Shown piece by piece: positions 11,319-30,499 of a DNA stretch of 64,000 bases. The stretch lies in contig NZ_CP015136.1 in NCBI RefSeq assembly GCF_001618865.1, positions 4,127,001 to 4,191,000 of the forward strand. Reading direction: 5' to 3'. The position numbers were made by a program, and so were the translations under genes. The DNA is from Luteitalea pratensis. Its GTDB lineage: Bacteria > Acidobacteriota > Vicinamibacteria > Vicinamibacterales > Vicinamibacteraceae. The stretch's first letter is position 1. The number at the start of each line of letters is the position of its first letter. Under the pieces are notes generated by a model. The model saw nothing but the letters and a program-made list of their open reading frames with translations, did not search any database and was not told where the DNA came from.

Positions 11319-11407
11319 TCGAACCCCTCCGGTTAGAGGTCCTGCGCGGTTTAGCTCATCTGTAATGGCGCAATGCTAGCACAACCGTACCGTGCGTCTG
11401 GTAGGCG

Positions 11408-14625: not shown

Positions 14626-15774
14626 CTACAGCGCGGCCGCGATGATCGGCCGCCGGGCAGCCCGGCGCTTCTCGGCACTGGCGCGCACGAGGAACTTCGC
14701 GTAGGGCACCACTTGCTTGATGGCTGCCACGTTCATCTGGCAGGGGCTCAGGCAGGTCGGGCACTTCTCGTCGCGGATGTAGTTCCGGTGCTCCTGAGAG
14801 GCCTGCTTGAAGTAGACCGCGGCCGGGTCCTCGGTCACGGCATTGCCGACGACGTCGCTGTTCTCGCAGAAGAACATGCCGCCATCGGGATTGAGCATCA
14901 CGCCCTGGGTCTGGAACGGGCAGGGCGCCATCCGGTGATAGCCGTTGCCGATCATGTCGGCGTAATGCATGTAGATGTAGTTCTGACCGTCCAGCAGCGG
15001 ATCGTGGCGCACCCGCTCGAGGAAGAACTCGCGCATCCGCTGTTCTTCGGCGTTGACCGGCTTGATGTCCTTGGCAAGATCCGCGTTGCCCAGCATGGCT
15101 TCGGTGAACCGGACCATGTTGAACACGATGTCGAGCTTCTCCCGGCGCGCCCAGGCCAGGATGTTCTCGGCGTCGTTCAGGTTCATCGAGAAGATGGTCG
15201 TCGAGATGCCGAAGTTGAAGGGGTAGCTCTTCTGCAGTTCCTTCATGGCCGCGATGGTCTGCTCGGCCTTGTCGAACCCGCGCTTCACCCGGCGCACCTC
15301 GTTGTGCATGTCGCCGACGCCGTCCACCGACACGCGGGTGCTGAAGATCACCCCACGCTCGTGGCACATCTGGACAATCTTGGTCAGCATCGGGATGCCC
15401 CGATGCGGCGTCAGGCCGGTGGTGTTCAGCGTCAGCTTGCGTAGTTTCGGCAGCTTGTCGATCATCACCCGGACGATGTCGACGAGGTCGTTTCGGGTCG
15501 TCGGCTCTCCCCCGGAGATGCTGGCGTTCTCGATGCGCTTCCACAGCGGCGAGCTGAAGACCTGCTCGATCTGCTCGAGACTCATGTCCTCCTTGCGGTT
15601 GCCGCGCGTCCAGTTGCTGCACATATTGCAGCGGGCATCGCAGACGAACGTCACATGGAAGATCAGGACCGTCGGATAGAGCGGGGTGACCCGGCCAACG
15701 TAGCTGTTGACGAAATCGCGGGGGGCACTGAGAGCAGCTTTTGCGAGGTACTTGGCCGCGTATACTTGCGCCAT
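14626..15774 (-). CDS. Radical SAM protein with SPASM-type C-terminus
   Basis: The 382-aa protein carries the radical SAM signature CxxxCxxC as Cys45, Cys49, Cys52 (VCDARCNMC), then SISGGEPTTRNDL and a TIM-barrel core. The C-terminal region (about 275-360) has further cysteines (CPFQ, FFCENSD, CPTCLSPC) that would ligate one or two extra Fe-S clusters, as in SPASM or twitch domains. Such enzymes modify peptides or small molecules, or act in lipid and cofactor pathways. No precursor peptide gene was seen near it. It probably forms a minus-strand group with the flippase-like protein and methyltransferase upstream, although a 97-bp gap with a REP element lies between. Confidence 0.85.
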   Translation of the reverse strand: MAQVYAAKYLAKAALSAPRDFVNSYVGRVTPLYPTVLIFHVTFVCDARCNMCSNWTRGNRKEDMSLEQIEQVFSSPLWKRIENASISGGEPTTRNDLVDIVRVMIDKLPKLRKLTLNTTGLTPHRGIPMLTKIVQMCHERGVIFSTRVSVDGVGDMHNEVRRVKRGFDKAEQTIAAMKELQKSYPFNFGISTTIFSMNLNDAENILAWARREKLDIVFNMVRFTEAMLGNADLAKDIKPVNAEEQRMREFFLERVRHDPLLDGQNYIYMHYADMIGNGYHRMAPCPFQTQGVMLNPDGGMFFCENSDVVGNAVTEDPAAVYFKQASQEHRNYIRDEKCPTCLSPCQMNVAAIKQVVPYAKFLVRASAEKRRAARRPIIAAAL

Positions 15775-15871: not shown

Positions 15872-16807
15872 TCAAGGATGCCGCTCGCGCAGGTACAGCC
15901 AGGCTCCCGGAAGGTTGCCGAACAGTCCGGACAGGACGATCAGCGTCGACAGGGCCAGCGACAATTCGTCCGGCACGCCGAGCGGGCGGAGCAGCCACAC
16001 CATCACGCCCTGGGGCAGTCCGAAGCCGCTGATCGAGATCGGCAACAGGAGCATCAACAAGCCGATCGGCATGAAGACGAGGTAATACGCAAACGGGACC
16101 GTCAACCCGAGCCCGAGGCCCAGACCGAACGCCTGCAGGATCCGGAGCAACTGGACGAGCACGGAGAGGCCGAACACCACGACCAGCGTGCCCGGCTGCT
16201 GACGGTACCCGGCCATCGCGTCCGCGATGCGCAGCGGCAGCCGCACCCCGGCCCAGGCGTGCCAGGACGAGGGCAGCCACCGGATCCACCGGTCCGCCCA
16301 CACGGCCGCGACCGACCCGACCAGAACGGCCGCCGCACTCGAGACCGCCACCAATTGCACCTTGGGATCGGGATGGCTGCGCGCGTAGGCGGCGATGCCG
16401 ATCCCACCCATCAGGGCAATCGCAATGACGCCCAGGATCCGGTCGATGGCCACCGACGCGACCGCCGCGCCGCGCTGGGCGGTCCGCTGCCCGAGCGCAT
16501 AGGCGCGGGCCGCATCGCCACCGACGCCGGCCGGCAGGAAGCTGCCGACAAATGAACTGACGAGAAAGATCCTGGCGGCCGTCATCGTCCCGACAGCGGT
16601 GCCACTGGCACGCAGCAGGAGCACCCAACGCCAGATCATCACGACGCGATCGAGCAGGACGAGGACCGCGACGACGACCAGGGCCAACGGGTTGGCCTGC
16701 ACCATCGCGCGCAGCGCGGCGCCGGTGTCGACCTGCCGCCAGAGATACGCGAGGATGAATACCGTGATGCCCGCCCGCACCCAGACCGAGCGGAGCCAGC
16801 GCGTCAT
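15872..16807 (-). CDS. Lysylphosphatidylglycerol synthase TM region / UPF0104 family membrane protein
   Basis: The 311-aa integral membrane protein has about eight hydrophobic segments and the UPF0104 (PF03706) landmarks: RVVMIWRWVLLLRA, FVGSFLPAGVGGDAARAY (about 75-95) and the late motif LPISISGFGLPQGVMVW (about 255-271). The family includes the flippase domain of MprF and proteins found in glycolipid loci. It has no cytosolic synthase domain. Its ATG (16807) overlaps the stop of the methyltransferase upstream by ATGA, so the two are coupled. A second member of the family lies at 23834-24832. Confidence 0.85.
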   Translation of the reverse strand: MTRWLRSVWVRAGITVFILAYLWRQVDTGAALRAMVQANPLALVVVAVLVLLDRVVMIWRWVLLLRASGTAVGTMTAARIFLVSSFVGSFLPAGVGGDAARAYALGQRTAQRGAAVASVAIDRILGVIAIALMGGIGIAAYARSHPDPKVQLVAVSSAAAVLVGSVAAVWADRWIRWLPSSWHAWAGVRLPLRIADAMAGYRQQPGTLVVVFGLSVLVQLLRILQAFGLGLGLGLTVPFAYYLVFMPIGLLMLLLPISISGFGLPQGVMVWLLRPLGVPDELSLALSTLIVLSGLFGNLPGAWLYLRERHP

Positions 16808-17523
16808 GTCCGGGGCTTGCGCGCCACGAACGCCAGGGTCTCGAACAGGTTCTTGCGCACCTTGAAGAGCACGTCTTCGGTGCCGGTCCAGCGCGAGAGC
16901 GTGTCGAGGCCCGGCACGTTGGCGAACACGGCGGCGGCGGCCAGGGCGTCACGGCGCAGCCCGGTGGCCACGCCGATGCTGCGCACGACCCGTTCCACGA
17001 CGAATCCTCCGTCATTGAAGAGCTGGCGCATGCGGCGTTCGGTGGTGACGAAATTGTGCGTGTAGTCCACGTCCCAGAAGAAGGTCCGCTCCTTCAAGTA
17101 ATCGGGGACCACGACAAAGAACACGCCTCCAGGCCGAAGCAACCGCAGTGCGTCAGCCGTGAACGCCCGGGCGGCATCGATGCCCGGCATGTGCTCCATG
17201 ACCTGGTCGGCATAGACGACGTCAAGCGACCCGTCCTCGCCGGGAATCGGCGGCGTGAACGCCTTGACGACCTTGAATCCCTTCTTCTTCAGGACGTCGA
17301 TCAACAGGTCGCTGGCCTCGATAGCCGTGTAGTCCCAGCCGCCTGCGACGGCCAGTTCGCCGAGGGTGCCGTGTCCGGGGCCGATCTCGACGAACCGTCC
17401 AGGGGGCTGGATGGCCTGCTGGAGCAGGCCGAGCCGGCTGCGCTCGATACGGCTGCGCCGCGCTGCGCCGTACCCGGTCAGCTGCTTCTCGGAAAACGAC
17501 TTGTAAAACGTGTCCTCGGCCAC
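16804..17523 (-). CDS. Class I SAM-dependent methyltransferase
   Basis: The 239-aa protein has SAM motif I as GRFVEIGPGHGTLGELA (about 44-59), then AIEASDLLIDVLKKKG and DVVYADQVMEHMPG (motif II/III), and LRLLRPGGVFFVVVPDYL. It belongs to the Methyltransf_23/11 type, with unknown substrate. The start is GTG 17523, with no ribosome-binding site. An extended -10 (TGTTATGAT, 17540-17532) places the probable transcription start at the start codon. It is the first gene of a coupled pair with the UPF0104 protein, so a lipid or lipid-linked sugar substrate is plausible. Confidence 0.82.
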   Translation of the reverse strand: MAEDTFYKSFSEKQLTGYGAARRSRIERSRLGLLQQAIQPPGRFVEIGPGHGTLGELAVAGGWDYTAIEASDLLIDVLKKKGFKVVKAFTPPIPGEDGSLDVVYADQVMEHMPGIDAARAFTADALRLLRPGGVFFVVVPDYLKERTFFWDVDYTHNFVTTERRMRQLFNDGGFVVERVVRSIGVATGLRRDALAAAAVFANVPGLDTLSRWTGTEDVLFKVRKNLFETLAFVARKPRT

Positions 17524-18211: not shown

Positions 18212-20314
18212 GTGGCACTGTTGAGCGCCAGGTCGCGATCCCACGCGCCGGTGGTTGCCGCGACGGCCTCGTTTCTTGCCGTGGCCGCCACGGCCTGGCT
18301 GTGTGTGGCCACCTGGCGTGTCGCATGGCTCGTCGCGGTCGGCCTCCTCTGGGTGGCTCCCGGCGTCATCGCGATGGCCCGCGCCTTCCGCGAGTACCGG
18401 TCGAGGTGGGCGATGGCCTTCCTGCTGGGCGGCCCATTCGGATTCGCGCTCAGCAGCGTGGGTCTGCTCCCGTTCTGGTTGCTGGGTGTCCGGTCCGGGT
18501 TCCTGCTGGTCGCCGTGCCACTGGCCGCGAGCGTCCTGGCCTGGCTGACGCCCTCGCTCGGTCGCGGCCTCGACGTCCCCAGGTACGGCCGGCGCGACCT
18601 GCTGGCCTTGGCGCTGCTGATTCTGCTCGTCCCGCTCGTCGTGGCGCGCCCGTATTCGCAGGTGGGCAAGGACCTGCCCGAAGGGCGCGCCTACCGTGCG
18701 TACTTCACGGCGGACTTCGTGTGGGCGATGGCGGTCGTGTCGGAAGTGAGCAAGGGCGACGGTGGCCTTCCGGCCAATCCGTTTCACGTCGACATGCGGT
18801 TGCATTACTACTGGCTCGCGCACCTGTTGCCGTCGCTGGAATACCGGACACTGCAGCGGGAAGTACGGCTGGACCACCTCCTGTTGGCCGACGCCGTCAT
18901 GAGCGGCGTGATGTTCCTCGGGTTCCTCTACGCGCTCGGCAAGCAGTTCGCACGTGGCGCCGCCGCCACACTGATCGGCTGTGTGGTGACCGTGCTGTTC
19001 ACCAGTCCCGAGGGACTGTATGCCCTGTTCGACTTGTGGCGGCAGGACCGGCCACTGTCGCTGGTCCGCTATCTCAACATCGACGCCGTGAGTCGCTGGA
19101 TGTTCGGGGCGCTGCCGATCGATGGTCTGCAGAGAGTCTTGCTGTATCAGCCGCAGCACCAGATCGGCTACGCGCTGGCCTGCACGGCGCTGCTGGTGAT
19201 GGTCCAGCAGGTGCGGCGGCCTCGCGTCGGCGCCGCCGCGCTCGCCGGCGCGCTGCTCGGCTGCGGACTGCTTGTCAGCACGTTCTCCGCCCTCATGGTC
19301 GGGATCATGGTGGGGGGCATCTCCAGCATCGCCATCGTGCACGCGCGCGCCTGGCGCATCGGGATTGTCCAGGCCGTGGCCGCGGCGGTCCCGATCGCGG
19401 CCGCCGTGTGGTTGAGCCGTGCGCTGGAGTACGTGGCCGCGGGCGGACAGTTGATCGACATTACACCCAATCCGCTGGCGACTCGCCATCCCATCTCGGG
19501 CCCGCTGATCAGCATTGGTCCGGTCCTGCTCGTGCTGGCACTCGGAGCCTGGCTATGGGCGCGTCGCGGCTGTGCATACCAGCGGGTGCTCGTGCCCGGC
19601 ATCGCGCTGGTCGTGTGCACGCTGTTCTACTTCTTCGTGGATGTCCGCGATCACCAGGACGTCTACGTCGGCTGGCGGGCGGGCCACCTCTTCTTCATCA
19701 CGTCCGGCGGCATGGTCGGCTGGACGTGGTGGCGTCTCACACATGCGGCGGCCCGCCGGTGGCACAGTGTCGGCCTCGCCTCGCTGGCTGTCGCCGCGCT
19801 CGTGACGCTACCGACGGTCGCCATCGACCTGTACAACACGCAGGACCTCACGAATCGCCAGATGGCCGCCGGCTTCCCCTGGACGCTGGTGCTGGGCCAC
19901 GACGAGGTGAACGCGCTGCGGTGGATCGCCACGCAGACGCCGACCGATGCCCGCGTGCAGGTGGAAGCCCTCGCGCGCGACCCCGGCACATGGGCCTACA
20001 TCCCGGCCTTCGCCGAGAGGCGGATGAGCGGTGGCCTTCCGATCTCGATGATTCCGCTGCGGCCCTATGAGGAGATCAGCCGCCGCGTGCGGCGCCTGTA
20101 CGAGGCGCCGGATGCCGAGGCCGCCTTTCGGCAGGCGGAGGCGCTGCGCATCGACGTGCTCGTCGTTGGCGGCGAGGAGAACAAGCGGCACCCGAACTTC
20201 CGCGCGCTGCTCGATCAGAGTCCGCAGATGTTCCCGCCACTGTACCGAACCCGCAACATCACCCTGTACGCCACGAGCGGCCGGATGCGCGCGTGGATGC
20301 ACGAGCACCACTGA
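18212..20314 (+). CDS. Large polytopic membrane protein, GT-C glycosyltransferase-like
   Basis: The 700-aa protein has about 12 hydrophobic segments between residues 10 and 550 and a soluble C-terminal part (about 560-700). After an early membrane segment comes an extracytoplasmic stretch with YFTADFVWAMAVVSEVSKGD and NPFHVDMRLHYYW. The first loop thus holds an acidic residue where GT-C enzymes (GT39/GT83, DUF2298-like) keep their catalytic acid. Such proteins transfer sugars from polyprenyl phosphate carriers in the periplasm. The start is GTG 18212, without a ribosome-binding site. No neighbour fixes its substrate. It could instead be a non-catalytic relative. Confidence 0.65.
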   Translation: MALLSARSRSHAPVVAATASFLAVAATAWLCVATWRVAWLVAVGLLWVAPGVIAMARAFREYRSRWAMAFLLGGPFGFALSSVGLLPFWLLGVRSGFLLVAVPLAASVLAWLTPSLGRGLDVPRYGRRDLLALALLILLVPLVVARPYSQVGKDLPEGRAYRAYFTADFVWAMAVVSEVSKGDGGLPANPFHVDMRLHYYWLAHLLPSLEYRTLQREVRLDHLLLADAVMSGVMFLGFLYALGKQFARGAAATLIGCVVTVLFTSPEGLYALFDLWRQDRPLSLVRYLNIDAVSRWMFGALPIDGLQRVLLYQPQHQIGYALACTALLVMVQQVRRPRVGAAALAGALLGCGLLVSTFSALMVGIMVGGISSIAIVHARAWRIGIVQAVAAAVPIAAAVWLSRALEYVAAGGQLIDITPNPLATRHPISGPLISIGPVLLVLALGAWLWARRGCAYQRVLVPGIALVVCTLFYFFVDVRDHQDVYVGWRAGHLFFITSGGMVGWTWWRLTHAAARRWHSVGLASLAVAALVTLPTVAIDLYNTQDLTNRQMAAGFPWTLVLGHDEVNALRWIATQTPTDARVQVEALARDPGTWAYIPAFAERRMSGGLPISMIPLRPYEEISRRVRRLYEAPDAEAAFRQAEALRIDVLVVGGEENKRHPNFRALLDQSPQMFPPLYRTRNITLYATSGRMRAWMHEHH

Positions 20315-20480: not shown

Positions 20481-21371
20481 TCAGTTGGTGAAGCGGCCGC
20501 GACCGGTCCAGCGCCCGATGGTGCCGGAACTGGCCGTCACACCCGTCTGGTCGATCCATGCAGGAGACGGCGATCCGCAGTGCCCCAGCATGATGTCGAT
20601 GATGTAGACCCCGGTGCTGTTCTCGCTGGGACCACCGCCCCAGTGGTAGTCGACGATGTCCTGGCTCGGGTCGTTTGCGTTGCCGCGCTTGCCGTTGTAG
20701 CCCCAGCGGTTGTCCTCCTTGCGGAGCTCGTCGACGAGGTAGTCCATAAACTCCCACGTGCCTCCACGGTCCTGACACGAGCGACTCACGAGATCGGGGC
20801 GTGCACTGAACGCCGCCTGGACCACACGCGAGCGGTCGGGGAGCGGCAGGCGCGACCCGGCCGGCGGATCCGGTGTGCGGCTGGCGCCGGACACAGGCGC
20901 CGCCGCCGTCTTGAACGTCCAGTTGGACGACCACGCCGCGTAGCCATCGGTGAGTTCCGCACGCACACGCCACGTGTACGTCGTGTCGAACTTCAGCTGC
21001 GTCGTGACCGTCCAGCTCGTACGACCGCCCCCGCCCGCCGGCACGAGCGGCTCGGCCAACAGGGTGCTGCCTTCGAACAGCTGGAAGCGGTGCGACAGCG
21101 CCACGGCGTTGGCGTGCGTCGCCACGGCGGTGGATACCGACAGCGTCACCGGGAGGGTGTTTTGCGGACCGAGCTCGGTCGTCGCACCGGAGCCAGGCGA
21201 CGGGCTGCCAGGCGTGTTGGCCTTCAGCGTCGGGGTGCCCTCGGGCACGGCCGCGACGGTGCCGGCTCCCGGCGTCGCCGACGGCGACATCGGATTGTTG
21301 TTGCTGCTACAGGCGGCACTCGCTGCAAGCAGCGCCACAAGTCCAAGTTGAATCGTGTACTTCGTCATCAT
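20481..21371 (-). CDS. Lipoprotein with Ig/fibronectin-like region and unrecognised C-terminal domain
   Basis: From ATG 21371 (GAGGA ribosome-binding site, 5 nt) the protein has 296 aa. The signal is MMTKYTIQLGLVALL with lipobox AASAAC, so lipidation is at about Cys21. A Pro/Gly/Ser-rich linker follows, then a beta-sandwich-like region with TTYTWRVRAEL. The C-terminal 115 residues are unusual: SCQDRGGTWEFMDYLVDEL, then RWGYNGKRGN, DPSQDIVDYHWG, VYIIDIMLGHCG and finally SGTIGRWTGRGRF. The same domain ends the lipoprotein at 22509-23786. Two conserved cysteines could form a disulfide. The gene follows the beta-barrel gene by 25 bp on the same strand. I know no function for the C-terminal domain. 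Confidence 0.8.
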   Translation of the reverse strand: MMTKYTIQLGLVALLAASAACSSNNNPMSPSATPGAGTVAAVPEGTPTLKANTPGSPSPGSGATTELGPQNTLPVTLSVSTAVATHANAVALSHRFQLFEGSTLLAEPLVPAGGGGRTSWTVTTQLKFDTTYTWRVRAELTDGYAAWSSNWTFKTAAAPVSGASRTPDPPAGSRLPLPDRSRVVQAAFSARPDLVSRSCQDRGGTWEFMDYLVDELRKEDNRWGYNGKRGNANDPSQDIVDYHWGGGPSENSTGVYIIDIMLGHCGSPSPAWIDQTGVTASSGTIGRWTGRGRFTN

Positions 21372-21396
21372 TCGTCCTCGTTGCATCCCCACGCGA

Positions 21397-22185
21397 TCAG
21401 AAGGCGACCCGGAGGCCGCCCCAGAACTGCACGCCGCCATACTTCACATCGACATCACCGGCGCTGTTCGGAAGGGTGACCTCGCCGCCGGCGTAGCGGA
21501 ATCCGAGCGTGGCGCCAAGGCGGCCCACTTGGCCGAGGTCGACGGGCAGCTTGTAGGTGAGGTCGGCCCCGATATTGACGGTGGTGCCCGTCTTCCTGCC
21601 GCGAGCGAGGGTGACGTCCTGAATCGCCACGGTGGCGAACTCCGGCGGGACGCCGGTTTCCTGCACCTGTGCCGACCCCACGAACTCGTGCGAGACGTTG
21701 ACGAAGGACGGGCCGCCGCCGAAACCGAGCGTCAGATCCTCGTTGAGCGGGACCATCCACATCGCCGAGAGATGGTAGGCGTTCTCGCTGTGTTTCAGGT
21801 CCCCGATCGTCTGGCTCGTCTGGCGGGGTCGGTTGGCAAACAACGGGTGCGGCACGCTCGCCACGACGGCGGCATCGATCGAGTCGCTCTTGCGCGTGTA
21901 GTTCAGCGTCGCGACGAGGTTCTTCCACACGCGTGCGCCACCGCCGATGTTCCAGATGGCGCCGCCGCTGTATTCCTGCGCGCCGGCGACGGTGCCCGGC
22001 TCGTCGTAGATGGTGAAGGTGGAGGTGCTGGTGAGCGTGTGCGATCCGCTCTGCCCGCCGCCGCCGACCTGGACGAAGCCGCGCTGCTCGTACGGAGTCG
22101 ACAGGGTGGATGTCATCGACGTTTGTGCCGACGCGAGTGTGGGTGTCAGCAACAGTCCCAGAATCAGTAGTGCTCGTTTACTCAT
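21397..22185 (-). CDS. Outer-membrane beta-barrel protein
   Basis: Starting at ATG 22185 the protein has 262 aa with a clear signal peptide (MSKRALLILGLLLTPTLASA, cleavage before QTS). The rest alternates polar and hydrophobic residues in short strands separated by Gly/Asn/Asp turns, and it ends in a C-terminal phenylalanine (GLRVAF). That is the usual signal for BAM-assisted outer-membrane insertion. Repeated phrases such as GFGGGPSFVN and LGFRYAGGEVTL fit the OmpW/opacity-like class of small barrels. It lies between two lipoproteins that share a C-terminal domain, all on one strand, so the three may form one surface assembly. No ribosome-binding site is obvious. Confidence 0.78.
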   Translation of the reverse strand: MSKRALLILGLLLTPTLASAQTSMTSTLSTPYEQRGFVQVGGGGQSGSHTLTSTSTFTIYDEPGTVAGAQEYSGGAIWNIGGGARVWKNLVATLNYTRKSDSIDAAVVASVPHPLFANRPRQTSQTIGDLKHSENAYHLSAMWMVPLNEDLTLGFGGGPSFVNVSHEFVGSAQVQETGVPPEFATVAIQDVTLARGRKTGTTVNIGADLTYKLPVDLGQVGRLGATLGFRYAGGEVTLPNSAGDVDVKYGGVQFWGGLRVAF

Positions 22186-22362
22186 AGGAAAACAGTCGAA
22201 CTCCCGCTCCGAGCCAGGTCGGATGGTTCTCATGGGCGATGGGTTGAAATCTGACGTGGGCCTCAGGCAACCACGCCACGGATGTCCGCCGGGAGTCGGA
22301 CACGAGATTGTTCGTTAGGGAGGAAAGGATGTCAACCGGGAGGAAGAATACCCGGCCGGGTA

Positions 22363-22436
22363 ATGCCTGATGCCTCATGCCTGATGCCTCATGCCTGATG
22401 CCTCATGCCTGATGCATCATGGCCGATGCCTGATGC
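22363..22436. repeat. Tandem repeat array, 14-bp unit made of two 7-mers
   Basis: ATGCCTGATGCCTC is repeated perfectly three times (22363-22404), then once with one change (22405-22418), then decays. The 14-mer is itself two related heptamers. The array lies 178 bp upstream of the beta-barrel start, in a 323-bp gap that holds no gene. This gap otherwise contains a hairpin at 22470-22494 and the likely promoter of the barrel gene. Confidence 0.85.
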
Positions 22437-22469
22437 CGTCATTGCGCCGTGGGCAGGGTGTCGACGTGC

Positions 22470-22494
22470 GGCAGGAGGCGTGACGCCTCCTGCC
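22470..22494 (-). terminator. Perfect 11-bp hairpin after the second lipoprotein gene
   Basis: Arms GGCAGGAGGCG and its complement enclose a 3-nt loop, 15 bp past the stop of the minus-strand lipoprotein gene. There is no T-tract, so it could be a Rho-independent terminator of weak type, an mRNA stabiliser or a REP relative without the GTAG foot. Confidence 0.45.
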
Positions 22495-22508
22495 CTCAGT
22501 GGGGTGTG

Positions 22509-23786
22509 TCAGAAGCGGCCGCGGCCGGTCCAGCGGCCGATCGTGCCGCTGTTCGCCGTCACCTGGGTCTGGTCGATCCACGCCGGCGACGGGTTGCTCC
22601 CGCAGTGGCCACCCATCACATCGATGATGTAGACGTTGGTCGTGCCCTCGTCGCGGTCCGAGCCCCAGTTGTAGTCGACCACGTCCTGGGATGGATCGCT
22701 GCTGTTGCCACGCTTGCCGTTGTAGCCCCAGCGCGTGTCGTACTGCCGAAGCCGATCGACGACGCGGTCCATGAATTCCCACGTGCCCCCGCCCGATTGG
22801 CAGGAATTGCGCAGGGCGCCGGGGTACTGGCGCGCCACTTCCTCGACCACCCAGGCCATGTTCGGCAACGGGAGCCGCTGCCCCGGCCCCGGATTGGGCG
22901 CGCGTGCGCCGCCGCTGGGAGCCGGTGCCGGTGCCGGTGCCGGTGCCGGTGCAGGACTCGGCGTTGGCGACGGCGTGGGGGGAGTCGGAGTGGGTGCCGG
23001 TGGCGTCGGGGTCGGCGTGGCCGCCGCCGCAGGCGTGCGGAACGACCAGGTCGGGCCGAGCGGCGACTGGACCACGCCGTCGGACGCGCTCACACGCCAG
23101 TAGTAGACGGTGTTGTACGCCAGAGCCGTGAGCCGGGTCGCCGTCGTGCTGCCGCCACTGCGCGGCACGGTCAGGACCGCCACCATCTGCGCGAATCCGC
23201 TGTCGGTAGCGATGTCGAACCGGTAGGACACCGGGCCGGCCAGCGATCCGGAGATCGCCCCGTTGGTCACCGTCAGGTCGGGCGACACGGTGTCGATGGT
23301 CGCGCCGATGGCCGGGTACGCGACCGTCGGAATCGCCAGGTGGACCGGGTCATTGAGTACGAAGCTGGCCGTCGCCGAGAATTCGCCGGTATTGGCGCCG
23401 TCGAGCGCGCGAACGTGCCAGTAGTACCGTGCCCCTGCGGCCGGCAGGTTGACCTGGTACGACGTGCGTCCATTTGACCCCGGCGACACCTTGTCGGCGA
23501 TGTGAACCTTGTTCTGGAACCCGCCATCGCTGGCAATCTCCACCTGCAACCAGATCGGGCGCTCGCCCGTCGTCGACGCGTTCTCGATCAGCAGCGTGAC
23601 GGCCCCGGTCTGGGTCAGGGTCTGGTTGTTGACAGGCTCGAGCGGCTTGGGCGCGGTGATGGTCACGCCCGCGATCGGGCCGGCCACGGTGGGGCTGAGG
23701 GGATTGCGGCTCTTGTTCGCTTCACACCCCCCGACGGAGACGCAGAGGGCGAGTGTGGCCAGGGCCTGGAGGTGGATCGTCTTCAT
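22509..23786 (-). CDS. Lipoprotein with fibronectin-type III-like repeats and unrecognised C-terminal domain
   Basis: The 425-aa protein has a lipoprotein signal with lipobox SVGGC (Cys21). Two Ig/FnIII-like units (about 40-145 and 150-250) each end in a YYWHVRA or YYWRVSA strand. A long Pro/Ala/Thr linker (about 252-293) leads to the C-terminal domain (about 303-425) shared with the lipoprotein at 20481-21371: SCQSGGGTWEFMDRVVDRL, RWGYNGKRGN, DPSQDVVDYNWG, VYIIDVMGGHCG, SGTIGRWTGRGRF. ATG 23786 has a GAGGA site 5 nt upstream. The architecture, a lipid anchor, spacer repeats, a flexible linker and a compact conserved domain, suggests a surface-displayed binding or enzymatic module. Confidence 0.82.
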   Translation of the reverse strand: MKTIHLQALATLALCVSVGGCEANKSRNPLSPTVAGPIAGVTITAPKPLEPVNNQTLTQTGAVTLLIENASTTGERPIWLQVEIASDGGFQNKVHIADKVSPGSNGRTSYQVNLPAAGARYYWHVRALDGANTGEFSATASFVLNDPVHLAIPTVAYPAIGATIDTVSPDLTVTNGAISGSLAGPVSYRFDIATDSGFAQMVAVLTVPRSGGSTTATRLTALAYNTVYYWRVSASDGVVQSPLGPTWSFRTPAAAATPTPTPPAPTPTPPTPSPTPSPAPAPAPAPAPAPSGGARAPNPGPGQRLPLPNMAWVVEEVARQYPGALRNSCQSGGGTWEFMDRVVDRLRQYDTRWGYNGKRGNSSDPSQDVVDYNWGSDRDEGTTNVYIIDVMGGHCGSNPSPAWIDQTQVTANSGTIGRWTGRGRF

Positions 23787-23833: not shown

Positions 23834-24832
23834 CTACACCTCCTCTTTCTGCATATCGGACGACGGCGCCGACACCATCAGTCCTTCCTTGCGGAGCAGG
23901 AACACGAGCCCGCCCGGAAGCGACGCAAGGATGAGCAGGGCAGCGCCAGCGATGGATAGAGCAAGGCCCGCATCCACCGGGTGTCCAAGGCGTCGAAAGA
24001 GGTAGGAAAACACGGCTTCGCGGACGCCGAATCCGTTGATGGAGACCGGCGCCAGCTGGATCACGAGACTGACCGGGACGATCACCAGGGCGTCACGGAG
24101 TGGCAGATCGATGTGCAGGCCCCACGCGACGCAGAGGTAGAACAGAACGACGAGGAACTGCACGACGAGGGCCCCGGCGAAGGCCTTGGCGAGGCGAGAG
24201 CGGTCGTTGCCGACGCGCCCCAGCATGTCCTCGAGACGTCCGAGCCTTTCGGTGACCCAGTCTTCCCGGACCCGCGTCAACGGCCGCAACAGCCACGGCA
24301 CGAGCGCCGGACGCGAGATGACAACCGCGGCCCCGACGGCGCCCAGGACCAGCAGGATCCAGAGATAACCGGTTCCGGGAAGGGCGTGCCGCAGCATCAG
24401 GGACCCGCTGGCCGCGATGGCGAACAGGGCGATCAGCCCCAGTACGCGATCGAGCAGCACAACGGCCGTCGCGACGGTGCGGGAGCCGGTCAATCCGGCG
24501 GTGTCGGCGATCCGGACGAAGTCGCCGCCGATGTTGCTGGGGAGAAAATTGTTGAAGAAATTGGCGACCAGGCAGGTCACGGTCAGTTGCCAGGTAGACA
24601 CGTGAACGTTCTGCGTCACCAGCAGGCGCCGCCAACGCCATCCGCTCACCAGCAACAAGGCGCCGTGCACCAGCAGGGCCAGCACGATCCAGCCGGGCTC
24701 GACCTGACGCAACCGGCCGAACACCGCACCGACGTCGGTCTGGCGGAACAGGACCCACAGCAGGCCGGCGCTGATGCTGAGTTTGAGGACGAACGAGGAC
24801 GCGCGGCGAACGCGCCCGGGCACGGGCGACAT
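23834..24832 (-). CDS. Lysylphosphatidylglycerol synthase TM region / UPF0104 family membrane protein
   Basis: The 332-aa polytopic protein shares the family landmarks of the gene at 15872: SGWRWRRLLVTQ, ANFFNNFLPSNIGGDFVRIADT and PVSINGFGVREAVFSYLF. It is probably a lipid-linked substrate flippase, or at least acts in glycolipid assembly. ATG 24832 gives the family-typical N-terminus; ATG 24886 would add 18 residues. The reading frame stays open far upstream through the divergent glycosyltransferase, but that extension is not coding. It is divergent from a GT4-epimerase-GT4 operon, which supports a shared pathway. Confidence 0.83.
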   Translation of the reverse strand: MSPVPGRVRRASSFVLKLSISAGLLWVLFRQTDVGAVFGRLRQVEPGWIVLALLVHGALLLVSGWRWRRLLVTQNVHVSTWQLTVTCLVANFFNNFLPSNIGGDFVRIADTAGLTGSRTVATAVVLLDRVLGLIALFAIAASGSLMLRHALPGTGYLWILLVLGAVGAAVVISRPALVPWLLRPLTRVREDWVTERLGRLEDMLGRVGNDRSRLAKAFAGALVVQFLVVLFYLCVAWGLHIDLPLRDALVIVPVSLVIQLAPVSINGFGVREAVFSYLFRRLGHPVDAGLALSIAGAALLILASLPGGLVFLLRKEGLMVSAPSSDMQKEEV

Positions 24833-24956
24833 GGTGATGGCACCGGCCGCGGCAGCCGGCGGTCGGAAGGTGACAGACGGTACCATGCGGCCACGTGCCC
24901 GGGCAAAGGGCGGCCGCATGGCCGAGGCCGGTCGGCCCGGACACCGTCGAGGCTGG

Positions 24957-24964
24957 TTTATACT
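24957..24964. promoter_or_regulatory. Overlapping divergent -10-like elements between flippase and glycan operon
   Basis: TTTATACT reads TATACT (24959-24964) on the plus strand and TATAAA (24962-24957) on the minus strand, each 5 of 6 to the -10 consensus. It sits in the only AT-rich patch of the divergent gap. No good -35 was seen on either side. Confidence 0.35.
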
Positions 24965-25033
24965 TGAGAGCTTTGTGGCCGCGCTGCCCGCCATCGGGTG
25001 GGCTGCCTCGTCTCCGCAGGTCGCCCAGCCATC

Positions 25034-26293
25034 GTGACGCCCCCCGCCGCACCGCTCAGGATCCTGATGCTCGCGCCCGAGCCGTTCTTCGAGCCGCGTG
25101 GCACGCCGTTCAGCGAATTCCACCGTATCAAGGCCCTCGTCGAGGATGGCCACCATGTCGACCTGGTGACCTACCCGATCGGCCGCGACGTCGACCTGCC
25201 GAACCTGTGCATCATCCGTACCTGGCGGCCGCCGTTGGTCAGCAAGGTGCCGATCGGGCCGTCGGCCGTCAAGGTGCTGCTGGACGCGCTTCTGACCCTG
25301 ACGATCCTCCGCGTGGCGCTGCTTGGCGGACGCAGGTATGACGCCATCCACTCGCACGAGGAGATGGGCGTCCTCGGCGTGTGGCTCGGCCGCCGGCTCG
25401 GCATCCCGCATCTCTACGACATGCACTCGAGCCTGCCGCAGCAACTCGGGAACTTCCGGTTCTCGCGCTCGAAAGCGCTGCGCTGGGGGTTCGAGAAGGC
25501 CGAAGGCTACATGGTGCGCGGGTCGCAGGTGGTGATCACCATCTGCCAGGAGTTGCAGGACACCGTTCATGAGATGGGCGTGGGCGACCGCGCCGTGCTC
25601 ATCGAGAACGTCATGGGCGGTGACGTCGACCCCACGCCTGGCCCAGGCCGCGACGCGGTGCGGGCCGCCTGGGGGTTGACCCCGACGCAACCGGTCGTGC
25701 TGTACACGGGCACGTTCGAGCAGTACCAGGGCCTCGACCTGTTGCTGGAGGCGAGCGTGCGCCTGAAGGCGTTGGTGCCCGACCTGGCCGTGCTGGTCGT
25801 CGGCGGCGACGCGGCACAGGTCAGCGAGCTGGCCGCAAGAGCCGAAAGCGCGGGCGCCCCGCTCGTCTTCACGGGCCAACGTCCACCGAGCGACGTGCCG
25901 CACTTTGTCGACGCCTGCGATGCCCTCGTGTCGCCCCGTATCTCCGGGACGAACACACCCCTCAAGATCTACTCGTACCTGCGGTCGGGCCGGCCGATCG
26001 TCGCGACCAACCTGCGTACGCACACGCAGGTGCTCACCGCCGACTCCGCGGTGCTCGTCGAGCCGACTCCCGACGCGCTCGCCGCAGGCCTCGCCGAGGT
26101 CCTGCAAGATCGCCAGGCCGCGGCGCGGCTTGCCGCATCGGCGCACCAACTCGCCGACGCGCGCTACAGCCGGCAGTCCTATCTCTCGCGCACGCGCCAG
26201 GCGTACGCGCTGTTGCTCGAGTCCATGCGTCCGCGCCCCCGTACAGTCCCTCTCGCCGGGGCCGCCCCGTCGGGGGGACGAGAGCCGCGGTGA
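25034..26293 (+). CDS. Glycosyltransferase family 4
   Basis: From GTG 25034 the protein has 419 aa and the GT-B fold of GT4. The N-terminal domain opens with LRILMLAPEPFFEPRGTPFS and contains DAIHSHEEMGVLGVWLG. The C-terminal donor domain has VVLYTGTFEQYQGLDLLL and the late CDALVSPRISGTNTPLKIYSYL, in place of the usual EGFG-type motif. These enzymes transfer sugars from nucleotide-sugar donors to lipid or glycan acceptors. GTG 24998 would add 12 residues. It is the first gene of a four-gene run (25034-30499), and its stop overlaps the next start (GTGA). Confidence 0.83.
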   Translation: MTPPAAPLRILMLAPEPFFEPRGTPFSEFHRIKALVEDGHHVDLVTYPIGRDVDLPNLCIIRTWRPPLVSKVPIGPSAVKVLLDALLTLTILRVALLGGRRYDAIHSHEEMGVLGVWLGRRLGIPHLYDMHSSLPQQLGNFRFSRSKALRWGFEKAEGYMVRGSQVVITICQELQDTVHEMGVGDRAVLIENVMGGDVDPTPGPGRDAVRAAWGLTPTQPVVLYTGTFEQYQGLDLLLEASVRLKALVPDLAVLVVGGDAAQVSELAARAESAGAPLVFTGQRPPSDVPHFVDACDALVSPRISGTNTPLKIYSYLRSGRPIVATNLRTHTQVLTADSAVLVEPTPDALAAGLAEVLQDRQAAARLAASAHQLADARYSRQSYLSRTRQAYALLLESMRPRPRTVPLAGAAPSGGREPR

Positions 26294-27285
26294 CGGCGGC
26301 GCTGGTCACGGGCGTCACCGGTTTCACCGGCGGACACCTTGCGCGTCACCTGGTGCATCGGGGAATCACCGTGCGCGGCCTGGTCCGGCCGCGGAGCCTG
26401 GGGCGGCCCGAAGTGGCCACCTTGCGCGAGGCGGGCATCGACATCGCCAGTGGCGACCTGACCGACGCCGCCGCTGTCGCGGCCGCCTGCGAGGGAGTCG
26501 ACGTCGTCTACCACATCGCGGCGACCTACCGTGAGGCGGGTCAACCCGACAGCGCCTACCGCGCCATCAACGTCCAGGGCGTCGAGCACGTCATCGACGG
26601 TGCGCGCGCGGGCGGCGCGCGTCGCGTCGTCCACTGCAGTACCGGTGGCGTCCATGGCCACGTCGCCAATCCGCCCGCCAACGAGGACGCTCCTTTCAAT
26701 CCCGGCGACGTCTACCAGGACACCAAGCTCGAAGGCGAACAACTTGCGCGCGCCGCAGGGCAGGCCGGCGGCCTCGAGGTCGTGATCGCCCGCCCCATCG
26801 GCATCTACGGGCCAGGCGATCTTCGTTTCCTCAAGATGTTCCGGGGCATTTCGCGGCGACGCTTCCCGGTGTTGGGTGCAGGCGAGGTCTTCTACCACCT
26901 GACGTACATCGACGACCTTTGCGAGGGCTTCCGCCTGTGCGGCGAAGTCCCTGCCGCCGCCGGTGGCACGTACATCCTCGGTGGGCCGCGTTACACGACA
27001 CTCAACACGCTCGTGGACCTCATCGCCGCCGAACTGAAGGTCAAGCCGCTGCCGGTGCACCTGCCGGTCTGGCCGTTCTGGCTGGCCGGCGCCGCCTGCG
27101 AGGCGATCTGTGTTCCGCTGCGGGTGCAGCCGCCGCTGTATCGTCGGCGCGTGGACTTCTACACGAAGAGCCGCGCCTTCGACATCACGCGCGCGCGCAC
27201 CGAACTCGGGTTCGCACCCGCCGTCGATTTGCCGGAGGGCATCCGGCGCACCATCGCGTGGTACCGCGCGCAGGGGCTGTTGTGA
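26290..27285 (+). CDS. NAD-dependent epimerase/dehydratase (SDR family, HpnA-like)
   Basis: The 331-aa extended SDR has the nucleotide-binding GVTGFTGGH (8-16), the active-site YQDTK (Y-x-x-x-K, about 146-150) and the ARPIGIYGPGD segment. A long C-terminal part resembles the hopanoid-associated sugar epimerase group. It would convert a nucleotide sugar or a dihydroflavonol-like substrate. GTG 26290 overlaps the GT4 stop, and its own stop overlaps the next GTG, so translation of the operon is tightly coupled. Because the flanking genes are glycosyltransferases, a nucleotide-sugar substrate is the most likely. Confidence 0.82.
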   Translation: MTAALVTGVTGFTGGHLARHLVHRGITVRGLVRPRSLGRPEVATLREAGIDIASGDLTDAAAVAAACEGVDVVYHIAATYREAGQPDSAYRAINVQGVEHVIDGARAGGARRVVHCSTGGVHGHVANPPANEDAPFNPGDVYQDTKLEGEQLARAAGQAGGLEVVIARPIGIYGPGDLRFLKMFRGISRRRFPVLGAGEVFYHLTYIDDLCEGFRLCGEVPAAAGGTYILGGPRYTTLNTLVDLIAAELKVKPLPVHLPVWPFWLAGAACEAICVPLRVQPPLYRRRVDFYTKSRAFDITRARTELGFAPAVDLPEGIRRTIAWYRAQGLL

Positions 27286-28517
27286 GCGAGAAGATTTCGG
27301 TGTTGCACGTGTGCGATCACCTCGGCTGGGCCGGGTCACGCATGCATGGCGTCAAGCGCCTGTTCGCGTGGACGCTGCCGCGCTTCGACAAGAGCCGCTT
27401 CGACGTCTCGCTCGTCAGTCTGCGACAGAAGGACTCGTCGGAGGACACGCTCGAGCAGTTCGGCATCGACGTCACGTACCTCCACAAGGGCAAGTTCGAT
27501 CCCGCGACGCTGACCGCGCTCCTGAAGGTGATGGACCGCAAGCGCACCCAAGTCCTGCACCTGCACGGATATGGCGCGACGACCTTCGGGCGCCTCGCGG
27601 CCGCGATGCGCGGCACCGCGGTCCTCCTGCACGAGCACGCGAACCACACGACGACGCCGTGGTTCCAGCAGGTGGCTGACACGACGCTGGCGCGCTACAC
27701 CGACCTCGCAATCGCGGTTTCGGCCTCGACGGCGGAATTCACCATTCGCGCCCGGAAGATCCCAGCCGAGCGTACGAAGGTCGTATACCTCGGCGCGCCG
27801 CTCGAGGAGTTCGGCCGCGCGCGCAGCGGCCAGGAGATCGCGGCGGCCCGTGAGACGCTGGGCATCGCCCGGGGGACGTTCGCCATCGGCACGGTCACAC
27901 GATTGATGCCGGCGAAGGGCAATCAGTACCTCATCGATGCGGTCCGTCCGATCGTCGACCAGGTCCCCGAGGCGCACGTATACATCGCCGGCGAGGGGGA
28001 ACTGCAGGCACAACTCGGGGCGCAGGCGCGTGACCTGGGTGTCGCCGATCGCGTGCACTTCCTCGGCTTCCAGCGCGACGTGGCCAGCGTGCTCTCGGCG
28101 TTCGACCTGGTGGTGTTCCCGTCGCTCTGGGAGGGGACGCCGTTGACGTCGTTCGAAGCGCTGGCGATGGGTAAGCCCATCGTGTCGACCGACGCCGACG
28201 GTCTGTGCGAAATCCTCCGCGATGGCGTCGACGCCGCGATCGTGCCGAGGGAAAGCGGACGCGCAATCGCCGATGCCGTCGTGGCGCTCGAGGCGGACCC
28301 GGCGCGCCGCGCATCGCTCGGGGCCGAAGCGCAGCGCACCAGCCGGCGTTACGACATCGCCGTGTGGGTGCGCAAGATGGAACGCCTCTACGAACTGATG
28401 GCGCGCGTGTCGAAGCCGACCAGGCGGCAGGGCCTGTTGCGAGAGGACCTCTCGTTCCTCGACGCCGGCCAGCCTTCGCCGCTGCCCGGCTCCCGCTTGC
28501 CAGGGGCGCAGCCGTGA
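27282..28517 (+). CDS. Glycosyltransferase family 4
   Basis: The 411-aa protein starts SEKISVLHVCDHLGWAGS, a typical GT4 opening. It has the donor-domain elements GTFAIGTVTRLMPAKGNQYLI, AHVYIAGEGELQAQL and VVFPSLWEGTPLTSFEALA, the last including the E-x7-E motif. GTG 27282 is fixed by the GTGA overlap with the epimerase. The longer frame from 26919 is inside that gene. It probably adds a second sugar in the pathway started by the GT4 at 25034. Confidence 0.87.
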   Translation: MSEKISVLHVCDHLGWAGSRMHGVKRLFAWTLPRFDKSRFDVSLVSLRQKDSSEDTLEQFGIDVTYLHKGKFDPATLTALLKVMDRKRTQVLHLHGYGATTFGRLAAAMRGTAVLLHEHANHTTTPWFQQVADTTLARYTDLAIAVSASTAEFTIRARKIPAERTKVVYLGAPLEEFGRARSGQEIAAARETLGIARGTFAIGTVTRLMPAKGNQYLIDAVRPIVDQVPEAHVYIAGEGELQAQLGAQARDLGVADRVHFLGFQRDVASVLSAFDLVVFPSLWEGTPLTSFEALAMGKPIVSTDADGLCEILRDGVDAAIVPRESGRAIADAVVALEADPARRASLGAEAQRTSRRYDIAVWVRKMERLYELMARVSKPTRRQGLLREDLSFLDAGQPSPLPGSRLPGAQP

Positions 28518-30499
28518 ACATGCCGCGGGCGGCCCGGCTCGGTCGCCTGTGGAGCGATCCCGGCGCGGTGGCGACACTCATCCTGGGTGCGCTCCTGCTC
28601 GGGTTCGCCCTGACCGTGCAGTTCCCGGTCGTGGCGTTCGGCTTCCAGAGTGACGAGGCCACCTACTACAGCCTCGGGCACAGCTTCGCGCGTGACTGGG
28701 ACATGCAGTTCCAGCGCAAGGACCTGGTCCGCGTGTGGAAGGAGTTCCCGACCGGACCCGAGGGCATCTTCCTGAAGCGCGGCCGAAGCGTCCATCTCGA
28801 ACCACAGGCGAGGCCGCCCTTTGTCCGTTGGGTCAAGAGTCCGGACCCACGGACAGACCGGCTGTACTACGGCAAGTCCTTCATCTATCCGCTGCTGGCG
28901 TCGCCCTTCATCACGCTGTGGGGCACCAACGGGTTCCTGGTGCTGCACGCGTTGTTGCTGACTGCGTGTTTCGGGGCCGTGTACGCGTTCGTTCGCGCGA
29001 GGTCCGGGCAGGCCGCGGCGCTGGCCTATGCCGTGGCGTTCCTCTTCGCCTCTGCCGCGCCCGTGTACTTCGTGTGGCTGACCCCGGAGCTCTTCAATCT
29101 GTCACTGGTACTCCTCGGGCTCTTCTTCTGGGCCTACAAGGAAGTGGCGCCGGCGGCGGTGCCGACGGCCACCTGGCTCGACCGGTGGGCGTCCCTGCTC
29201 CGCAGTCCCTGGTCCGATGTCATCGCTTGCGCGCTGCTCGGCATCGCCACGTTCTCCAAGCCTCTCAACGTTCTGGCTGCCGCCCCCATTCTCTGGCTCG
29301 CGATCCTGCGGCGTCAGTGGGGGCGCGTCGCGATCGTCAGCCTCGCCTTCGTCGCGGCCACGGGAGGACTCTTCCTGATCAACGGGATCAGCAGCGGCGA
29401 CATGAACTACCAGGGCGGTGGGCCCGACCGGTCCACGTTCTACGGCCGCTTCCCGTTCCAGACGCCCGAGTCCACCTTCGACAACACCGGCATCGCCCGC
29501 GCGACCGACGGCCTGCTCACCGAAGTCATCTTCAATCAGGATGCCCTGACCACGGTGCTGCGCCACAACTTGGTGTACTTCCTGGTGGGCCGGCACACCG
29601 GCCTGGTGCCGTACTTCTTTCCGGGAATCCTCACCCTCGTGTTGTTCCTGTTTGCTGGCCGGCATCGCCGCGAGCCCTTCCAGTGGCTCATCCTGCTCGC
29701 CCTCGTGCTGGCATCGGTCAGCCTGCTGATCTACATGCCCTTCACGTACTCGGGCGGCGGCGGTCCCGTCGGCAACCGGTACTTCATGGGCTACTACGCC
29801 CTGTTTCTCTTCCTGGTGCCAGCGGTCATCACGGTACGCGCCGCGGTCGTGGCGGCAGTGGTGGGCGGGCTGTTCACCGCGCAGTTGATCGCCAACCCGT
29901 TCTACTCGTCGTTCAACCCGGCGACGCACCCGAAGTACGGACTGTTCACGCGGCTGCCAATCGAGCTGTCGCTGGTGAACGACCTGCCGGTCAACGTGAC
30001 GCCGTCCCGCGCCAAGCAGCCCCTGGCGGGAAATCCGCCGGTGCTGGCGTACTTCATCGACGACAACGCCTACAACCGTGAAGGCGAGTGGTTCTGGGTG
30101 CGAGGCGAGTCGCGCGCCGACCTCATTCTCCGCGCGCCGGCGCGACCGCATGCCGATGGCGCCTTCACGTCGCTCGCGATCGACACGATCGAGGTCGAGG
30201 TCGCGACGGGCGCCGCCGCGTCGGTCGTCAGCATCGACACCGGCGCGGAGCGCGTCAGGGTGGCGCCGGGCGCCCGCAGTGGCGACACCGTGCGGGTGAA
30301 GATGCCGGAGGGATTTCCCTACAAGGCGATCCCCGGCCAGCCGCTCAATCGCGTCTACAGCATCTCGATCGCCTCCAGCGAGGGCTTCGTGCCGCTCTTC
30401 GATGAAGGCGTCCGCGACAACCGCTTTCTGGGTGCCCGGATCCGGATCACGCCGTTGTATCGTGACGATCGGTACCAGCCGCCACGGGCGGCACATTGA
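28514..30499 (+). CDS. Polytopic membrane protein, GT-C (ArnT/PMT-like) glycosyltransferase candidate
   Basis: Starting at GTG 28514 (GTGA overlap with the GT4 stop) the protein has 661 aa. There are about 10 transmembrane segments (20-460) and a soluble beta-rich C-terminal domain (about 480-661). After the first helix comes VAFGFQSDEATYYSLGHSFA. The acidic pair in SDEATYY matches the D/E in the first periplasmic loop of GT39/GT83 enzymes. It would use a polyprenyl-phosphate sugar made by the cytosolic enzymes of the same operon. No closer family can be assigned by eye. Confidence 0.7.
   Translation: MNMPRAARLGRLWSDPGAVATLILGALLLGFALTVQFPVVAFGFQSDEATYYSLGHSFARDWDMQFQRKDLVRVWKEFPTGPEGIFLKRGRSVHLEPQARPPFVRWVKSPDPRTDRLYYGKSFIYPLLASPFITLWGTNGFLVLHALLLTACFGAVYAFVRARSGQAAALAYAVAFLFASAAPVYFVWLTPELFNLSLVLLGLFFWAYKEVAPAAVPTATWLDRWASLLRSPWSDVIACALLGIATFSKPLNVLAAAPILWLAILRRQWGRVAIVSLAFVAATGGLFLINGISSGDMNYQGGGPDRSTFYGRFPFQTPESTFDNTGIARATDGLLTEVIFNQDALTTVLRHNLVYFLVGRHTGLVPYFFPGILTLVLFLFAGRHRREPFQWLILLALVLASVSLLIYMPFTYSGGGGPVGNRYFMGYYALFLFLVPAVITVRAAVVAAVVGGLFTAQLIANPFYSSFNPATHPKYGLFTRLPIELSLVNDLPVNVTPSRAKQPLAGNPPVLAYFIDDNAYNREGEWFWVRGESRADLILRAPARPHADGAFTSLAIDTIEVEVATGAAASVVSIDTGAERVRVAPGARSGDTVRVKMPEGFPYKAIPGQPLNRVYSISIASSEGFVPLFDEGVRDNRFLGARIRITPLYRDDRYQPPRAAH

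Follow-up and report, generated by a model that had tools for sequence, protein, structure and literature searches.

Sus-like systems of Bacteroidota (SusC/D/E/F) bind glycans through an outer-membrane barrel and lipoproteins, some of them on immunoglobulin (Ig)-like stalks, which are encoded together with carbohydrate genes. Phage receptor-binding tips and tail-fibre heads place a swappable tip on a conserved stalk. Here we describe a module of Luteitalea pratensis that shares features with both. In a 64,000 nucleotide stretch of the chromosome (NZ_CP015136.1, positions 4,127,001 to 4,191,000; hereafter the window), the gene of a beta-barrel protein lies between two lipoprotein genes whose products end in the same domain, termed type A. 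Comparison across loci showed that a conserved scaffold of predicted lipoprotein, barrel and lipoprotein carries interchangeable heads of at least four kinds, type A and types B, C and E. As in Sus-like systems, a barrel is combined with lipoproteins on Ig-like stalks and encoded with carbohydrate genes. However, the barrel of the module comprises about 240 aa, is probably of the OMP_b-brl type and is not a TonB-dependent SusC-type transporter; its neighbours look biosynthetic rather than degradative, and its heads are swapped. No TonB-receptor family was among the 11 Pfam families listed for 32 barrel members, and Pfam revealed no SusD-type lipoprotein among both window lipoproteins and ten neighbouring genes. 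Like tail fibres, the module has an interchangeable tip on a conserved stalk, and one phage copy of the head (L079) lies within an apparent tail-gene region. But in bacteria the heads sit on predicted lipoproteins encoded in a glycan cluster of the chromosome, and some phage copies have signal peptides and adjoin lysis genes. Within the libraries tried and the open-licence PubMed Central (PMC) literature, we found no described system that matches the module. Searches of this literature returned no paper on outer-membrane lipoproteins or exopolysaccharide of Acidobacteria, on a Vicinamibacter lipoprotein barrel or on receptor masking, and the excerpt of the Luteitalea pratensis paper (PMC5900883) mentions neither lipoprotein nor exopolysaccharide. 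An earlier note on this DNA had proposed a small cell-surface system without a described match; no match emerged, but the unit turned out to be larger, a head-swapping module inside a glycan cluster.

In the window, all three genes are located on the minus strand. Lipoprotein 1 (20481..21371) consists of one Ig/fibronectin type III (Fn3)-like stalk domain and a type A head (20484..20879). It is the downstream lipoprotein; at higher coordinates lie the predicted outer-membrane beta-barrel protein (21397..22185) and lipoprotein 2 (22509..23786, 425 aa), in which two Ig/Fn3-like stalk domains are connected to a type A head (22512..22904) by a Pro-rich linker read from the sequence (22908..23036). 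As listed, the open reading frames (ORFs) of lipoprotein 1 and the barrel extend to 21440 and 22233; judged by eye from the signal peptides, the likely starts are M24 (about nt 21371) and M17 (about nt 22185), respectively. A PROSITE-type lipobox pattern matched both lipoproteins and placed the cysteine at position 21 from the likely starts, which classes them as bacterial lipoproteins with a predicted lipid anchor. Their N-terminal parts, unequal in length as the earlier note had stated, gave only sub-threshold Pfam families, nearly all of them Ig/Fn3-like. The barrel protein of the window shows a signal peptide and a C-terminal Phe and matched no Pfam family. Within its family, OMP_b-brl (PF13505) was the most frequent Pfam match, weak and present in 25 of the 32 members at E<=0.1 (best 1.3e-8), and the family profile found no match among PDB sequences.

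The two window heads are 66% identical over 131 aa (E=5e-55), and both ORFs as well as every conserved motif that the earlier note lists were confirmed. Its claim of a shared C-terminal domain with the barrel in between thus held, although the domain measures about 125-131 aa rather than 115 aa. Two more copies (45% and 48% identity) are encoded at about 3.77 Mb of the same genome, which is a single contig of 7,480,314 bases. These copies (L003 and L004) form the ends of long, secreted-looking proteins (open frames of 740 and 846 aa) outside the barrel module; the L003 protein (1420-3306) contains repeats and what we take to be a TIG/IPT-like segment.

We scanned 76 loci: 42 from GTDB contigs, 33 regions fetched around barrels, and the window. 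Homologues of the domain occurred together with the barrel in 21 of the 42 GTDB-derived loci; neither of the outcomes that the earlier note named as refuting, a strong match to a known domain or homologues never found with a barrel, was observed. In 11 of these 42 loci, many of which are on short contigs, a domain gene lay on either side of the barrel, which was encoded on the opposite strand in 10 of the 11. A barrel and two typed lipoproteins were present in 28 of the 76 loci, 14 of them among the fetched barrel regions, and the barrel was placed between both lipoproteins in 26. The head types on lipoprotein 2/lipoprotein 1 were A/A in 12 modules, A/E in two, E/E in three, B/L in five, C/L in five and C/C in one, where type L is a domain of about 210 aa typed only on lipoprotein 1. 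Since both stalks are Ig-like, the assignment to lipoprotein 1 or 2 by profile is approximate. The typed modules leave out L128, L130, L132 and L138, which are incomplete or differently composed, as well as L058 (two A lipoproteins beside the barrel) and L060 (one typed lipoprotein); L148 was dropped as a duplicate of L056. One set of 13 fetched barrel regions, nine of them from genomes without a type A domain, displayed the same lipoprotein-barrel-lipoprotein order and the same cluster with homologous stalks and other C-terminal heads. These 13 regions are not a random sample, because most were picked for the glycosyltransferase gene GT4a near the barrel.

Single loci varied further. E and A heads stand in tandem on a single lipoprotein of L033 (genome G042). 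L130 encodes a lipoprotein 2 stalk (680-2353) with a C-terminal part unlike all five typed heads, so further head types probably exist. In L128, a lipoprotein-1-like protein without typed head (10972-13056) adjoins a lipoprotein 2 with an A head and ends in what are presumably FG-GAP/VCBS-like repeats. Variable C-terminal domains on conserved N-terminal parts are likewise expected if the heads were the C-terminal heads of polymorphic toxins. We consider this very improbable, given the predicted lipid anchor and the fact that both heads are of one type in 16 of the 28 modules; inspection of ten neighbourhoods by eye, no systematic search being made, revealed no recurrent small partner gene.

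One indication of head exchange came from L048 (type A) and L125 (type E). Their stalks share 68% identity over 248 aa and their barrels 53%, whereas the two heads do not match (best E 0.07). When a tree was built from 35 lipoprotein 2 stalks with the heads removed, it required at least 10 changes of head type, where three would be the least possible number; an earlier quick stalk tree gave nine changes and a barrel tree with many weak forks gave 11. On the stalk tree, the approximately unbiased (AU) test rejected a single clade for type E (P=1.4e-6), type B (P=7.6e-5) and type C (P=1.4e-4). In the head tree and the stalk tree, B, C and E labels were clustered no more than shuffled labels. Repeated exchange of head types between lineages is well supported by these sequence comparisons. 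Within L041 and within L058, the two A heads are mutual closest relatives in the head tree, which suggests a concerted change of the pair; the two heads of the window are not.

The earlier note had regarded the domain as an unrecognised, folded unit with conserved Trp, Asp, His and two Cys. In agreement with an unrecognised domain, searches of Pfam, NCBIfam, PHROGs and PDB sequences with type A gave nothing significant. Searches with all 71 members gave scattered matches only (best 0.023 for Pfam, 0.0043 for PHROGs; best PDB profile match E 0.12), and seven of the 71 matched phrog_12792 (best 0.0062). The type A profile was present in 17 of 60 genomes, that of the window included, and plasmids gave no match for type A. 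The 42 GTDB loci, obtained by one pattern scan for type A, were titled mostly as Acidobacteria; the remaining titles were a few Myxococcota, one Elusimicrobia, one Cyanobacteria and one Acidimicrobiia. The Cyanobacteria title (L056) is doubtful, because this locus equals genome G030, which belongs to the same order as the window.

An AlphaFold2 model of type A, based on 71 aligned sequences, was highly confident (mean predicted local distance difference test (pLDDT) score 97, predicted template modelling score (pTM) 0.91), as expected for a folded unit. Three helices are followed by five strands, with a helix ahead of the last strand. Among 77 distinct A heads, D74 and D95 are invariant, position 64 is Lys in 73 (K64) and position 59 is Trp in 74 (W59). 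Cys35 and Cys101 were both present in 69 heads, both absent from four and present singly in four, and this co-variation suggests a disulfide. Trp, Asp and the two Cys are thus conserved as claimed; His100, found in 68 of the 77, is not essential. Fold searches of the PDB with the type A model gave no match with an E under 1.8, and a myosin had the best VIA value (Z 3.5), a result that does not show a new fold.

How the head types relate to each other was analysed by profiles, models and conserved residues. Profile comparison showed homology between A and C (hhalign probability 94.7, E=6e-8, score 48.4; with fewer sequences 75.7 and 2.9e-6), and the C profile also matched an A head of genome G006 at 2.6e-4. 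The type E model (pLDDT 85 from four sequences) displays helices that precede four strands, an order shared with A, with K62 on strand 1, D73 beside strand 2 and D85 on strand 3. In a viral fold library, the A model matched A0A6J5QSJ9 (E 2.4e-7, template modelling (TM) score 0.69) and A0A6J5MLQ7 (E 0.19, probability 0.91), and the E model matched A0A6J5MLQ7 (E 3.9e-11) and A0A6J5QSJ9 (E 0.023, probability 0.99), the other matches listed for either model standing at 0.23 or less. Both are uncharacterised proteins of uncultured phages. Since the two models match the same two phage proteins, A and E probably have one fold. One fold is probably common to A, B, C and E as well. Furthermore, a K-G...SxD...D signature is kept in all four types (patterns written after seeing the sequences): K occurs in 73, S in 68 and each D in 77 of the 77 distinct A heads, and the signature is found in 6/6 B, 7/7 C and 10/10 E heads, one E head having A in place of S. 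Profiles of B, C and E found no match among PDB sequences and that of L only one at E 0.13; a PHROGs search with the head types gave nothing. One of five L heads had a sub-threshold Laminin_G_3 match (E 0.0023), and we do not claim type L as a lectin.

The module is embedded in genes that point to glycan biosynthesis. On one side, its conserved neighbours are an LPG_synthase_TM-like membrane protein (23837..24985, minus strand), which BLAST also placed near the module elsewhere, and four plus-strand genes: the family 4 glycosyltransferase (GT4) GT4a (24998..26290), a NAD-dependent epimerase/dehydratase (26290..27282), a second GT4 (27282..28514) and a 659-aa protein with many hydrophobic stretches (28520..30496). 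A 700-aa protein with many hydrophobic stretches (18212..20311, plus strand) is encoded beside the module; neither of these two large proteins matched Pfam, and both may be GT-C-like. On the other flank, the recurrent neighbours, all on the minus strand, are a methyltransferase (16807..17523), a second LPG_synthase_TM-like membrane protein (15875..16807) and a radical SAM protein (14629..15774). The set of two GT4, epimerase, two LPG_synthase_TM-type proteins, methyltransferase, radical SAM protein and large membrane-type protein was found in the window, by eye in ten GTDB loci and, among 13 further loci searched with BLAST, in the majority. GT4a is present in 38 of the 60 genomes, that of the window included. 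An A, B, C or E head was detected in 29 of these 38 genomes versus two of the 22 without GT4a (Fisher P=4e-7, kinship ignored; the counts leave out a weak B match in G059 at 7.7e-4 and the C cross-match in G006 at 2.6e-4).

The heads are also encoded by phages. Six IMG/VR contigs contained type A and two contained type E; the contigs were taken as phage from the collection and from visible tail-like and lysis genes. Since the domains of L005 and L006 have the same sequence and those of L007 and L008 are 91% alike, the type A copies represent four distinct phage lineages. Six of the seven phage copies with a complete C terminus comprise, by eye, a head, a Pro-rich linker and a coiled-coil-like stalk. 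Signal peptides were recognised by eye in three A copies (L005, L007 and L008) and one E copy (L149), and two of these four genes lie directly after a Pfam-confirmed endolysin gene. The L080 head gene comes immediately after a gene for a phage lysozyme. Its counterpart in L083 is located after a cell-wall hydrolase gene and ahead of a small membrane-type protein, perhaps a holin, and in L082 a sub-threshold C92-type amidase and a GH108 gene come after the head gene. The upstream candidates in L149 and L150 had no clear endolysin family. In L079, a short protein encoded after tail-like genes ends in the head; this copy, whose N terminus we take to be fibre-like, matched no family in PHROGs or Pfam. 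Large ORFs with signal-peptide-like starts, odd for virion proteins, were observed near tail-like genes in L079 (471-2072), L083 (3073-4731) and L082 (7153-7995). INPHARED phages gave no match for A, B, C or E (A and E at E<=0.1), scans of viral contigs with the B and C patterns found no relative, and scans starting from the phage copies returned the same contigs and no others.

Phage-type heads in bacteria might pre-occupy a glycan receptor, and those of phages might stop re-adsorption to cells or debris. The occurrence of the same heads in phages and bacteria, the scattering of phage A heads over more than one clade of the head tree, and the four signal peptides, two of them after an endolysin gene, are consistent with such receptor masking. 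That phages use lipoproteins in this role is illustrated by Llp of T5, described in the excerpt of PMC9586334 as a phage-borne outer-membrane superinfection-exclusion lipoprotein that acts on FhuA from the periplasm. Llp resembles the module in being an outer-membrane lipoprotein paired with a barrel and linked to phages; but it is phage-borne and periplasmic, acts on a protein receptor, and has no domain shown in that excerpt to be common with the module. Moreover, long branches blur the head tree, and transfer may have gone either way. Overall, receptor masking appears improbable. Outer-membrane lipoproteins face the periplasm by default, and peptidoglycan hydrolase genes immediately precede two of the phage copies, as could be expected if the lipoproteins faced inwards and their heads bound peptidoglycan like Pal or OmpA. 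Peptidoglycan, however, is nearly constant, so that repeated head exchange and the tie to a glycan cluster would be left unexplained, and we give such a periplasmic tether only a small chance.

Tip exchange, two heads per module, the glycan cluster and the phage heads fit the recognition of a lineage-variable ligand. Our leading, still tentative reading is that the heads recognise a lineage-variable ligand of the envelope, probably a glycan of the surrounding cluster. The lipid anchor and the Pro-rich linker would place the head on the cell surface or close to it, with the barrel as the membrane partner of the lipoproteins. There, the head would recognise a ligand that varies from species to species; a surface glycan that the cluster produces or modifies is the most likely one. 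Action on this ligand would also explain why phages carry such heads, and head exchange would let a lineage follow a change of the ligand. A more far-reaching version, which we regard as doubtful, would have bacteria of this group and their phages share one pool of exchangeable heads, kept by the bacteria in pairs on the lipoprotein-barrel-lipoprotein scaffold within the cluster of their own glycan for self-recognition or receptor masking and re-tuned by exchange.

Several observations weigh against recognition of a variable ligand or against parts of the argument for it. Genomes with type E in the module carry type A elsewhere, and one head per glycan is therefore too simple. All three genes are on one strand in only 6 of the 28 typed modules (strands entered by hand), and 14 of the 33 fetched barrel regions contained the barrel family without such lipoproteins. 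The orthology of the compared stalks was taken from position and profile, and hidden paralogy could inflate the exchange count. Concerning a common fold, the A-B, A-E, B-C, B-E and C-E profile comparisons were not significant (scores 11.8 to 19.6), with seven reversed controls at 9.0 to 21.4 and A-E (19.6) below one of them (21.4), and for both models the weaker of the two viral fold matches had an E above 0.001. The two head genes with signal peptides directly after an endolysin gene are not clearly virion parts. Finally, heads that cannot otherwise be aligned keep a nearly invariant set of polar residues, which resembles an active site more than a variable binding site.

This last point leads to the main and serious rival, small enzymes as heads. 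In this view, the catalytic site would consist of K, SxD and D, and the swapped body would set the substrate specificity, for example for the glycan of the cluster; in phages, the heads would open the envelope at entry or lysis. The two Asp invariant in all 77 distinct A heads, the signature common to A, B, C and E, and the position of two phage copies immediately behind a gene for a phage lysozyme (L080) or a cell-wall hydrolase (L083) argue for this explanation. In addition, the E model weakly matched the papain-like protease domain of Marasmius oreades agglutinin (MOA; VIA Z 4.6, 3.7 A over 92 residues), the best VIA value outside the MOA lectin family being Z 3.0. However, a Z of 4.6 falls within the 'common arrangement' range of the tool, the A model has no such resemblance, and the likeness is perhaps accidental. 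A papain-like catalytic Cys/His pair is not kept either: Cys35 of type A co-varies with Cys101, His100 is missing from some A heads, and the four modelled E sequences have no invariant Cys. Asp and Lys could instead form a structural salt-bridge network. Taken together, we consider enzymatic heads unlikely, though worth serious attention, and tentatively retain recognition of a variable envelope ligand.

Acidobacteriota are a dominant phylum of soils, and to our knowledge their phage receptors and surface recognition have been little studied. Since the PDB searches yielded no confident structural relative, a solved head structure would be informative by itself. With defined heads (A, B, C and E), a pair of closely related stalks that carry different heads (L048 and L125) and phage copies of two types, the module turns recognition into a testable question: what do exchangeable, predicted surface domains common to soil bacteria and phages recognise?

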